From contig NZ_BFBR01000006.1 of the NCBI RefSeq assembly GCF_003112735.1, positions 124,001-188,000 of the forward strand: a stretch of 64,000 nt of DNA. Direction: 5' to 3'. A program made the translations under genes and the position numbers. The notes under the pieces are model-generated. The model was given only the letters and a program-made list of their open reading frames with translations. It was not told the DNA's origin and did no database searches. This DNA comes from Candidatus Phycosocius bacilliformis. GTDB taxonomy: Bacteria; Pseudomonadota; Alphaproteobacteria; Caulobacterales; Aquidulcibacteraceae. This document shows, piece after piece, positions 1-63,996 of the stretch. How positions within the stretch are numbered: position 1 is the first letter of the stretch; each line of letters opens with the position of its first letter.

Positions 1-145
1 TCATGCCATCACCCACATCCGCCTGCTACATCCTGCCCGCCATCGCTGCACCCGCACGCAAGACAAGCTGAATCGACACAAACGGATGTGACAGGACTTC
101 GCGGCGTCTGTCAGCCCCTGCCGACAGAAAACACCCCATTCATCC

Positions 146-232
146 TCACCCGATGACAGCGCCCCAACCCCAAGCCATCAGGGTGAAAGCGAGAATGGCA
201 GCAAACGCAGCAGCATCTTGAAGTTGGGCCAT
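146..232 (-). CDS. SidA-like 28-residue SOS-induced membrane peptide
   Basis: This 28-codon reading frame begins with ATG at 232 and stops with TGA at 146-148. It is preceded by a strong ribosome binding site, GGGAG at 243-239, six bases from the start. The product begins MAQLQDAAAF, followed by a single hydrophobic helix (about residues 8-28) ending GWGAVIG. A perfect LexA box lies 14-28 bases upstream. Known: Caulobacter SidA is a 29-residue LexA-controlled inner-membrane peptide that blocks division at FtsW/FtsN. Inference: this is a SidA-type division inhibitor, from size, single membrane helix, SOS box and position downstream of lolD. I could not align it to SidA, so the symbol is withheld. 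Confidence 0.72.
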   Translation of the reverse strand: MAQLQDAAAFAAILAFTLMAWGWGAVIG

Positions 233-245
233 GATCCTCTCCCAT

Positions 246-260
246 GTTCTTGCTTCGTTC
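246..260 (-). promoter_or_regulatory. LexA box (GTTC-N7-GTTC)
   Basis: The plus strand reads GTTCTTGCTTCGTTC, a perfect match to the alphaproteobacterial LexA operator GTTC-N7-GTTC. It lies just upstream of the 28-codon peptide gene, where bound repressor would block its transcription. Two one-mismatch copies overlap or follow it (GTTC-N7-GTTT at 257-271 and ATTC-N7-GTTC at 262-276), giving a tandem operator. Confidence 0.8.
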
Positions 261-336
261 TATTCTTGTTTTGTTCTCATGGCAAGGGCTCTTTTGCAGC
301 TCCCACCGCACATGCGGACCTGCTTCAATCTAGGCG

Positions 337-1029
337 TCAATCTTCAACAAGACGGCCGGATTCGATACGGAAAACCCGGTCCATTTGGCGGGCCAGGTCG
401 AGATTATGGGTGGCGACCAAGGCCGCGCTGCCCTCGTCTCGTGTTGCCTTGCGGAAGATGTCGAACACAAAGCTGGAGGTGGCCGGGTCGAGATTGCCGG
501 TCGGTTCATCGGCAATCAAGAGTGCGGGCTTATTGGCTAAGGCGCGAGCGATCGCCACTCGTTGCTGCTCCCCGCCCGATAATTGGCCAGGCTGATGGTG
601 CTGGCGATCTTGCAGACCCATGGATGACAAGAGCGCACCCGCCCGCGCACGCGCAGCCTCAGTAGCCACCCCGCCGATCCATTGTGGCAGGGCCACATTA
701 TCCAGTGCGCTAAACTCGGGCAGCAGATGGTGGAACTGATAGACAAAGCCCAATGCCTGCCGCCGTAAAGCTGTGCGGGCAGCGTCTGGAAGGCTGGTAG
801 CATCCTGTCCAGTCAGCTCTACTGTGCCACCTTGGACAGCCTCAAGAAGGCCCGCAGCATGCAAGAGCGAGGATTTGCCAGAGCCCGATGGGCCAATCAG
901 AGCCACGATCTCGCCCGGATTGACCACCAGATCGACACCTTTGAGAACTTCAAGCTCCCCAGCTCGGGTGTGATAGGCCCGGCGTAATTGGGTTAGACGC
1001 AAGACGGGTGGACGGACCTCATCACTCAT
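337..1029 (-). CDS. lolD: Lipoprotein-releasing ABC transporter ATPase LolD
   Basis: ATPase that powers extraction of outer-membrane lipoproteins from the inner membrane by the LolCDE complex. The 230 residues carry Walker A GPSGSGKS (46-53), a Q-loop at Q98 in the Lol-typical context YQFHHLLPEF, signature LSGGE (150-154), Walker B LLIADEP followed by TGNLD, and the switch histidine at about 208. Length is normal for LolD. The start overlaps the end of lolC by 8 bases, so the two are translationally coupled. MacB-type ATPases are similar, but the FHHLLPEF segment and the LolC partner favour LolD. Confidence 0.95.
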   Translation of the reverse strand: MSDEVRPPVLRLTQLRRAYHTRAGELEVLKGVDLVVNPGEIVALIGPSGSGKSSLLHAAGLLEAVQGGTVELTGQDATSLPDAARTALRRQALGFVYQFHHLLPEFSALDNVALPQWIGGVATEAARARAGALLSSMGLQDRQHHQPGQLSGGEQQRVAIARALANKPALLIADEPTGNLDPATSSFVFDIFRKATRDEGSAALVATHNLDLARQMDRVFRIESGRLVED

Positions 1030-33628: not shown

Positions 33629-34789
33629 TCACCGCAGGCGGCGTGACGACTTAAAGCCCGATGCCAAGGTCTTGTCGCGGAACACTTTTGCGTTCTGGAC
33701 AAGGCCGAGGCCAAACATCAATGACAACATGACGCTGCCGCCATAGCTTAAAAAGGGCAGCGGTTCACCCACCACCGGCAAAATGCCCATAATCATGCCT
33801 GCATTGATCCCGACATAAATGAAGAGAAGCATCGTGACCCCGGCAGCGAGAAACTTGCCGAACGTGTGCCGGCAGCCGATCGAAATATAAATGCCAAACG
33901 CCATAGCAGCCAAATAAAGCGAGAGAACAAACACCCCGCCAACCATACCAAATTCTTCGAGCAGCATGGCAAAAACAAAGTCGGTATGGCGTTCAGGCAG
34001 AAAGTCGAGTTGGCTTTGGGTGCCCTGCATATAGCCAACCCCAAACAAGCCGCCCGACCCAATCGCAATTTTGGACTGGGTAATGTGATAGCCCGAGCCC
34101 AATGGATCACGCGACGGATCGAGGAAAGTCAGAATCCGGTTCCGTTGAAATTCGGCCATAAAGAAGAAAAAGGCCGCCAGGGCGAAAGTGGCGACTGAAG
34201 CACCCGCTGCAATCACATACCACCAAGACAGGCCCGCCAAAATTACCATTGTCGCGCCCACGCCTGCCACCATGATCGCAGTCCCCAGATCTGGCTGAAG
34301 CGTGATCAATGCTGCAGGTGCAGCCAGCATTATCAAGGGAATAAGATGGGCACGCAGCGTCCACATCCGATCTGAATCGGCATCCTGATAATAGCGTGCC
34401 AAAGCCAAAATCAGCGCAATCTTCATGAATTCAGATGGTTGCAGGCGAATTGGCCCGATCTCCAGCCAGCGCTGGGCCCCGAGCGCGACTTTACCGAACA
34501 ATTCTACACCAATCAGCATGATGAAGACGATGATATAGGCTGGATAGGCCGCATAATACCAAACCCGCACATCAATCGTGGCGACCACAAGCATCAAACA
34601 GGTCACCACAAAAAAGCGGATGACATGATCGCCTGCCCACGGCTCCCAACTGGCCCCAGCTGCGCCAAACAGCAAAATGGTGCCCATGAGTGAAATCATC
34701 GCCATAACGAAGACAAGGCCCCATTCGACACGGCGCAATTTACCCAAGAAGCTGTCCCGACCGGCCTCAATATCACTCAAGAAAGTCAT
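33629..34789 (-). CDS. rodA: Rod-shape peptidoglycan polymerase RodA
   Basis: SEDS-family glycosyltransferase that polymerises glycan strands for side-wall growth with PBP2. The 386 residues hold about ten membrane helices and the SEDS motifs GAQRWLEIGPIRLQPSEF, LQPDLGTA, GSGYHITQSKIAIGSGG and the late GEPLPFLSYGGS. Starts in ATGA overlapping the mrdA stop by 4 bases. Last gene of the mre operon. Confidence 0.96.
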   Translation of the reverse strand: MTFLSDIEAGRDSFLGKLRRVEWGLVFVMAMISLMGTILLFGAAGASWEPWAGDHVIRFFVVTCLMLVVATIDVRVWYYAAYPAYIIVFIMLIGVELFGKVALGAQRWLEIGPIRLQPSEFMKIALILALARYYQDADSDRMWTLRAHLIPLIMLAAPAALITLQPDLGTAIMVAGVGATMVILAGLSWWYVIAAGASVATFALAAFFFFMAEFQRNRILTFLDPSRDPLGSGYHITQSKIAIGSGGLFGVGYMQGTQSQLDFLPERHTDFVFAMLLEEFGMVGGVFVLSLYLAAMAFGIYISIGCRHTFGKFLAAGVTMLLFIYVGINAGMIMGILPVVGEPLPFLSYGGSVMLSLMFGLGLVQNAKVFRDKTLASGFKSSRRLR

Positions 34790-63099: not shown

Positions 63100-63996
63100 T
63101 CACCCTTCTTTGCGGCCCTTCATGACCCGGATCAGACCTTCTTGGGCCACACTGGCAACCAGACGGCCATCGCGCGAAAAGATTTTGCCCCGGTTCATGC
63201 CGCGTCCCCGACCAGCCCATGGGCTGTCGGTGCAATAAAGCAGCCAGTCATCCGCGCGGAAATCATCATGAATCCAGACGGCATGATCAAGGCTTGCCGT
63301 CATCAATTCGCCGCGCATCCAGCTCAGACCGTGCGGACGGGCACATGTACCCAGCAATTGCATATCCGATGCATAGGCCAGAACGGCGCGGTGCAATTGG
63401 GGATCATCCCCCAAGGGGGCCACCGCCCGAAACCACGAATTCTGCTGCGGTGGCAGCTTATCTGAGCGCAACCATGCCGCTGGATCCAAAGACCGGAACT
63501 CAATCGGGCGAGGGGTCAGAAAAAAGGAATGGAACTTTTCTGGAACCAGATGGAGGGTCTGTTGCCGCCACGCGGTCTCAGACGGCAGGCTATCAGGATC
63601 GGGCATGTCAGGCATCGTGTCCTGATGGCTTAACCCCGGCTCCATCTTATGGAAGGACGCGGCCATGTTAAGGATGGGCACGCCCTGTTGCTGGGCGATC
63701 ACCCGGCGGGTTGAGAAACTACCCCCATCATAGTCGCGCACCACGCGATAGACGACGGGAAAATCCTCATTGCCGGGGCGCATGAAATAGGCATGCAGCG
63801 AGTGGGGTACGCGGTCGACGTCGGTAGATTTGCTGGCTGCCATCAAGGCTTGAGCGATCACCTGACCACCAAATACGCGTCCACGGCCACCCGGCTTACG
63901 CGCGCCGCGATAAAGATCAGTGTCAAGGGTTTCCACATCCAGAAGCGTGGTAAGGCCCTGGATCAAGCTTTCGGGGGAGAGGTCTTGTTCTGTCAT
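63100..63996 (-). CDS. tesB: Acyl-CoA thioesterase II
   Basis: Hydrolyses medium/long-chain acyl-CoA. The 298 residues form a double hotdog: RVFGGQVIAQALMAA, HSLHAYFMRPG, and in the second half HSLDHAVWIH-like SLDHAVWIHDDF with catalytic aspartate, plus TDSPWAGRGRGMNRGKIFSRDG at the end. Length standard for TesB. Begins four bases before the window edge and so is complete. Confidence 0.95.
   Translation of the reverse strand: MTEQDLSPESLIQGLTTLLDVETLDTDLYRGARKPGGRGRVFGGQVIAQALMAASKSTDVDRVPHSLHAYFMRPGNEDFPVVYRVVRDYDGGSFSTRRVIAQQQGVPILNMAASFHKMEPGLSHQDTMPDMPDPDSLPSETAWRQQTLHLVPEKFHSFFLTPRPIEFRSLDPAAWLRSDKLPPQQNSWFRAVAPLGDDPQLHRAVLAYASDMQLLGTCARPHGLSWMRGELMTASLDHAVWIHDDFRADDWLLYCTDSPWAGRGRGMNRGKIFSRDGRLVASVAQEGLIRVMKGRKEG

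Follow-up and report, generated by a model that had tools for sequence, protein, structure and literature searches.

A sidA-like, LexA-boxed membrane micropeptide gene directly ahead of dnaE, probably a divergent orthologue of Caulobacter sidA

At the edge of the window (the whole 64-kb stretch of DNA that was analysed) lies a 28-codon gene which, with a probability of about 0.8, is a divergent orthologue of Caulobacter sidA, whose LexA-controlled peptide would hold FtsW inactive and thereby pause division. What can be observed is a coding gene, its conservation, a tandem operator, the sidA locus and a link to SidA via intermediates. The original prediction had read the gene as encoding a SidA-like SOS peptide, and every part of that reading that can be tested on sequence stood, with the exception of direct sequence recognition.

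The peptide gene, its operators and its surroundings

The gene occupies positions 146–232 of the minus strand, where a 28-codon frame had been predicted, and consists of an ATG start, 28 codons in all and a TGA stop (MAQLQDAAAFAAILAFTLMAWGWGAVIG). The predicted ribosome binding site is present as GGGAG at 239–243 (minus strand), separated from the ATG by a 6-base spacer. Hydropathy gives a single hydrophobic stretch, in agreement with the membrane helix that had been proposed, and the best 17-residue Kyte-Doolittle mean of the peptide is 1.84, so that a product of 28 residues with one predicted helix stands beside the roughly 29 residues and one membrane helix of SidA. No Pfam model (E up to 1) and no NCBIfam model (E up to 10) recognises the peptide.

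Among 60 genomes of its own family that were searched, the peptide is matched at 93–100% identity in all nine genomes of the genus, each of which has lolD upstream and dnaE downstream of it. Over these nine genomes 18 of the 28 codons are variable, only two of them with an amino-acid change, and the variable bases fall on codon positions 1, 2 and 3 in the numbers 1, 0 and 18 (18 of 19 at the third position). This third-position bias indicates purifying selection on the peptide, and marks the gene as real.

The perfect GTTC-N7-GTTC box of the original prediction is found at 246–260, which is 14–28 bases upstream of the ATG (putative LexA operator 2 from a motif scan, GTTCTTGCTTCGTTC on the plus strand and GAAC-N7-GAAC on the minus strand). 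Beside it, at 262–276, the scan gives a further putative box with one mismatch (operator 1, GAACAAAACAAGAAT on the minus, coding strand), and the two are accordingly read as an operator tandem. A putative −35 element (TTGCCA, 280–285, minus strand) and a putative −10 element (TAGAAC, 257–262, minus strand) were picked out by eye with a 17-base spacer between them; by the same inspection operator 1 fills most of this spacer and operator 2 overlaps the −10 element, such that both boxes would cover the promoter. A strict promoter scan found no promoter upstream of the peptide gene.

GTTC-N7-GTTC is the LexA motif of Caulobacter given in the available text of PMC12700426. Perfect copies number two in the 64-kb window against 1.25 expected, which is not significant alone, and it is conservation across the genus genomes that lifts the box above chance: a perfect box starts 28–30 bases ahead of the ATG in eight of the nine, and the GAAC-N7-GAAT box of operator 1 is present in all nine. 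The one genus genome lacking the perfect box, G003, has a disturbed second operator but an intact first one. The other perfect copy of the window (63532–63546, minus strand) lies within a 298-residue ORF (63100–63996, minus strand) that by eye resembles an acyl-CoA thioesterase, and is probably there by chance.

Over the whole genome there are 43 perfect boxes (22 and 21 by strand), compared with 138 and 141 for the backwards pattern. At the 30 of these 43 loci that were inspected, ORFs behind some boxes read as lexA, recA, imuA, uvrA/ssb, comM and uvrD, and 16 of the 30 boxes fall within ORFs of more than 200 residues; by these assignments the genome has a LexA regulon that uses GTTC-N7-GTTC. 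One further perfect box, on contig C5 (L026 1501–1515, GTTCTTATTTTGTTC), is close in sequence to operator 1 and lies 33 bases upstream of a 117-residue ORF that may be an SOS gene.

The window begins at base 124001 of contig C6, in a genome of 3.3 Mb and 21 contigs. The minus-strand order is proS-like, lolC-like, lolD, peptide, dnaE, followed past dnaE by lexA (plus strand) and gltX (minus strand), the names of the neighbours resting on a reading of their translations. The upstream neighbour lolD (337–1029, minus strand; lipoprotein export ATPase) also served as a tblastn probe. Only the start of dnaE (1–16, minus strand; the replicative DNA polymerase III alpha), a GTG at window base 16, falls inside the window, the remainder extending beyond its edge (L031 8420–12016). 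Since lexA (L031 7597–8307, contig C6) is just past dnaE, it is near the sidA-like gene; two perfect boxes lie between lexA and gltX, and a 525-residue ORF of the same genome (L031 4447–6024) resembles, by eye, two TetR-type regulators fused in tandem.

The sidA locus and the sequence link to SidA

In Caulobacter vibrioides DSM 9893 (L207), a 29-residue peptide that scores 72.4 bits with the NCBIfam model NF033228.1 (div_inhib_SidA, cut-off 35) directly precedes dnaE and has several LexA-type boxes upstream. There lolD ends at 1215 and the dnaE match is at 2501, the gap between peptide and dnaE being about 35 bases provided that ATG 2480 is the dnaE start. The original prediction had placed the peptide downstream of lolD, in agreement with the Caulobacter locus near dnaE; the order lolD-peptide-dnaE is indeed present in the window, and the synteny holds in C. 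vibrioides with lolD about 1.1 kb upstream. The two loci thus share a peptide of nearly equal length (28 and 29 residues) with one predicted helix and tandem LexA-type boxes, placed directly ahead of dnaE with lolD upstream, and differ in that lolD is directly adjacent to the window peptide, in contrast to the distance of about 1.1 kb in C. vibrioides. In the best 80 of 266 confirmed loci, a set that is hence biased to Caulobacter-like DnaE, a SidA-like peptide stands ahead of dnaE in all 80 and lolD is also present in 46. A small ORF with a LexA-type operator, upstream of dnaE and near lolD, identifies the window locus as the sidA locus.

Five families of the order were sampled (f1 to f5). 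By inference f3 is Caulobacteraceae, its DnaE matching mostly Caulobacter and Phenylobacterium, and f1, the window genome's own family, would be a distinct family of the same order, Caulobacterales. Of 396 genomes of the order, 42 exceed the cut-off of model NF033228, and every one of these belongs to f3. With E up to 0.01 as the limit, 79 genomes are matched (78 of f3 and one short match in f4), and among 14 named control genomes the model matches Caulobacter vibrioides only. SidA is therefore already recognised in f3, as the model itself shows. At E up to 10, NF033228.1 (cut-off 35 bits) has no match to the window peptide; in the genome that carries the peptide the model likewise finds nothing.

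Direct evidence for homology to SidA is thin. The alignment to SidA, which the original prediction had proposed as a check, yields 3 identities over 28 aligned positions with C. vibrioides SidA, and a model built from f3 alone gives the window peptide 1.9 bits, a score also reached by 58 of 1394 decoys (hydrophobic ORFs) and by 22 of 200 shuffles. A link through intermediates is supported, with f4 resembling both sides. The f4 peptide G129 (MRRMVQDISAATAILGFTWMITMWGSVLGSV) is identical to the window peptide at 13 of 28 positions and scores 23.7 bits with an f1-only model, above every decoy. A model of f3, f4 and f5, own family excluded, gives the window peptide 18.3 bits, which none of 200 shuffles reaches; 10 of the 1394 decoys score at least 18.3 bits, and all of these, when traced, proved to be sidA-like genes that had been missed and that have a LexA-type box. 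Among decoys lacking such a box the top score is 14.1 bits. With the same model the f1 peptide G017 scores 1.6 bits, and 49 of 200 shuffles are as high.

Profile-profile scores were obtained with hhalign against 100 column permutations per pair. None of the 100 permutations was as high for f4-f3 (32.2), f1-f5 (21.7), f1-f3 (13.0) and f5-f4 (17.6), compared with one for f1-f4 (17.6) and six for f5-f3 (7.7). The class set scored 27.7 with f3 (0 of 100 permutations as high), 31.6 with f4 (0), 28.9 with f5 (1) and 18.5 with f1 (2); permutation maxima near 130 in two of these class comparisons look artefactual and were kept in the counts. An acidic residue (Asp or Glu) immediately precedes the helix in every one of the 67 distinct Caulobacterales peptides aligned, and the hydrophobic character of the peptide is kept over several families.

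Distribution across families and orders

Searching the order with a peptide profile alone returned chiefly noise, with hits in 232 of 398 genomes at E up to 5. Most of the weak hits among the matches listed were short stretches of longer frames, and for this reason the search was anchored on dnaE. A carrier was defined by a GAAC-N7-GAA(C/T) box followed, within 110 bases, by an ORF of 22–50 residues that contains a hydrophobic stretch and terminates ahead of dnaE. Loci were read in 55 of 55 f1, 30 of 31 f2, 30 of 55 f3, 30 of 56 f4 and 28 of 28 f5 genomes with a dnaE match, the sets of 30 being the genomes with DnaE most like the query; for several f5 and other-order peptides the start codon was picked by eye among in-frame starts.

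Box and membrane micro-ORF precede dnaE in 15 of 55 f1 genomes, 0 of 30 f2, 25 of 30 f3, 30 of 30 f4 (29 peptides inspected) and 26 of 28 f5, giving 96 carriers in 173 genomes, one of which looks spurious. The reversed control yields none among the 173, with 0 in each of the five families, and shuffle means were 0.0–0.1. G414 adds a further f3 locus, with a box that is degenerate by eye. The f5 carrier G210 was judged spurious by eye and is still counted among the 26.

The expectation that the peptide would be conserved along with its flanks held for the genus, where it is kept in nine of nine genomes; across f1 as a whole it stands beside dnaE in 15 of 55. Two of the 40 f1 non-carriers have too little upstream sequence to tell. 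In six of the nine non-carrier f1 genera at least one genome has lolD upstream of dnaE with the peptide absent, a pattern read as lineage loss. G014 has, at L042 1501–1584, a peptide of 54% identity accompanied by a perfect LexA-type box, possibly a moved copy; neither dnaE nor lolD was found on this contig stretch, and the dnaE region of G014 shows no box. In G015 (L090) dnaE is preceded by a perfect box (GAACATAGTAGGAAC), possibly a remnant of a lost sidA, after which no membrane micro-ORF was found.

The GAAC-N7-GAAT box is present in 10 of 16 f1, 13 of 25 f3, 13 of 29 f4 and 16 of 21 f5 carriers, and in 0 of 12 from other orders. The spacing of the tandem boxes seen in the window recurs in 13 of 16 f1, 17 of 25 f3 and 13 of 21 f5 carriers, compared with 0 of 29 in f4 and 0 of 12 in other orders, so that operator layout provides no link to the latter two groups.

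Beyond the order, 108 of 110 genomes of the class with a dnaE match were examined (G447 and G509 being left out). A perfect box lies within 700 bases in 14 of them and 12 of these 14 have a matching ORF, so that 12 of the 108 genomes satisfy the perfect-box rule, where the reversed control yields 1 and shuffled sequence 0.05. With the model of f3, f4 and f5, 11 of the 12 peptides score above all 200 shuffles, the exception being G474, and with the model of f1, f3, f4 and f5 this holds for 7 of the 12. A candidate in G461, whose sequence resembles the tail of LolD, was judged spurious and is not among the 12.

FtsW and the competing readings

According to PMC4211646, Caulobacter SidA has 29 residues, resides in the inner membrane and interacts with FtsW, the effector being the peptide itself; the effects of SidA and of DidA are both relieved by the FtsW substitutions F145L and A246T, and those of SidA by A31K. 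AlphaFold 3 models in a 2026 paper, which that paper itself describes as not of high confidence, place SidA on TM7 of FtsW (PMC13396833). The FtsW of the window genome (contig C7, outside the window) has the same residue as C. vibrioides FtsW at 189 of 385 aligned positions, keeps F145 and A246, and has Leu at position 31 where Caulobacter has Ala. This copy lies near a MurD-like ORF, and its counterpart in C. vibrioides is the one with A31, F145 and A246, names being assigned by reading. A second gene of the FtsW/RodA family (PF01098), at 33677–34633 of the window (minus strand), was considered as FtsW and rejected; it adjoins a penicillin-binding-protein-like ORF and by position would be RodA rather than FtsW.

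Taken together, the Caulobacter work on SidA and FtsW and the FtsW comparison make a LexA-controlled one-helix peptide that keeps FtsW inactive the best account. LexA dimers on the two tandem operators overlapping the promoter would keep the gene off until DNA damage activates RecA, whereupon LexA would be cleaved and the 28-residue peptide made. The peptide would insert into the inner membrane as one helix, its short N-terminal tail ending in the conserved Asp, and, as with SidA, would keep the septal synthase complex of FtsW inactive; cells would then grow on undivided until repair is complete.

YneA of Bacillus, SosA of Staphylococcus and ChiZ of Mycobacterium are larger, have parts outside the membrane, are unrelated in sequence and belong to Gram-positive or mycobacterial hosts. 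They are likewise damage-induced membrane inhibitors of late division, and YneA interacts with FtsW (both PMC13396833). In the account of PMC4211646, DidA of Caulobacter likewise inhibits division as a small, damage-induced membrane protein, but it is SOS-independent and binds FtsN, whereas the window peptide has two LexA-type operators.

An unlikely alternative is that the gene encodes a LexA-controlled membrane micropeptide of another type, one that does not bind FtsW and instead depolarises or slows the cell in the manner of E. coli TisB or DinQ. TisB is a further SOS peptide of E. coli. Peptides of the DinQ kind do exist (PMC3567139), the length and single helix of the window peptide would fit this function equally well, and its direct similarity to SidA is weak, with 3 of 28 aligned identities and 1.9 bits with the f3 model. 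Such a peptide would not account for a position beside dnaE that is orthologous to that of SidA, for a tandem operator common to many Caulobacteraceae-type loci, for the sequence bridge to SidA, or for the acidic residue that precedes the helix throughout the 67 Caulobacterales peptides aligned.

Somewhat less probable again is that the LexA operator serves dnaE, so that damage raises the replicative polymerase, with the short ORF a mere leader. The peptide gene is directly ahead of dnaE on the same strand, at a distance of 129 bases (in C. vibrioides about 35, on the start codon assumed above), and a search of the interval for terminator-like sites gave none. Yet the amino-acid sequence as well as the position is conserved, under strong selection, its hydrophobic character is retained over several families, and the Caulobacter effector is the peptide itself (PMC4211646). 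Co-induction of dnaE can be reconciled with a divergent SidA that acts on FtsW. A chance ORF beside a chance box, for which 1.25 perfect boxes expected per 64-kb window might seem to allow, is refuted by conservation in nine of nine genus genomes with third-position substitutions and by the same layout in 96 of 173 genomes (one spurious) against 0 of 173 reversed.

The kind of gene is already known, and what seems new is a member beyond the reach of the curated model together with the breadth of the locus. The open literature searched holds no statement of SidA at the dnaE locus beyond Caulobacter, a distribution that the original SidA description may discuss; a division stop after DNA damage in Alphaproteobacteria other than Caulobacter seems little described, nothing having been found in the same literature. 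Division inhibitors of this kind are short and variable, and a search anchored on dnaE and guided by the LexA box provides specific candidate peptides in several families. The locus also offers natural variation around the contact between SidA and FtsW, with a conserved Asp or Glu in the peptide, FtsW F145 and A246 kept and position 31 changed. On balance, though with less assurance than for the gene itself, we favour the view that SidA represents an ancient checkpoint of the Alphaproteobacteria, a membrane micropeptide under LexA control that diverges fast yet keeps its place upstream of dnaE, in many cases where lolD and dnaE meet, and which would be present in four of the five sampled families and in scattered families of other orders, have been lost repeatedly elsewhere, and be hidden from annotation by its size and divergence.
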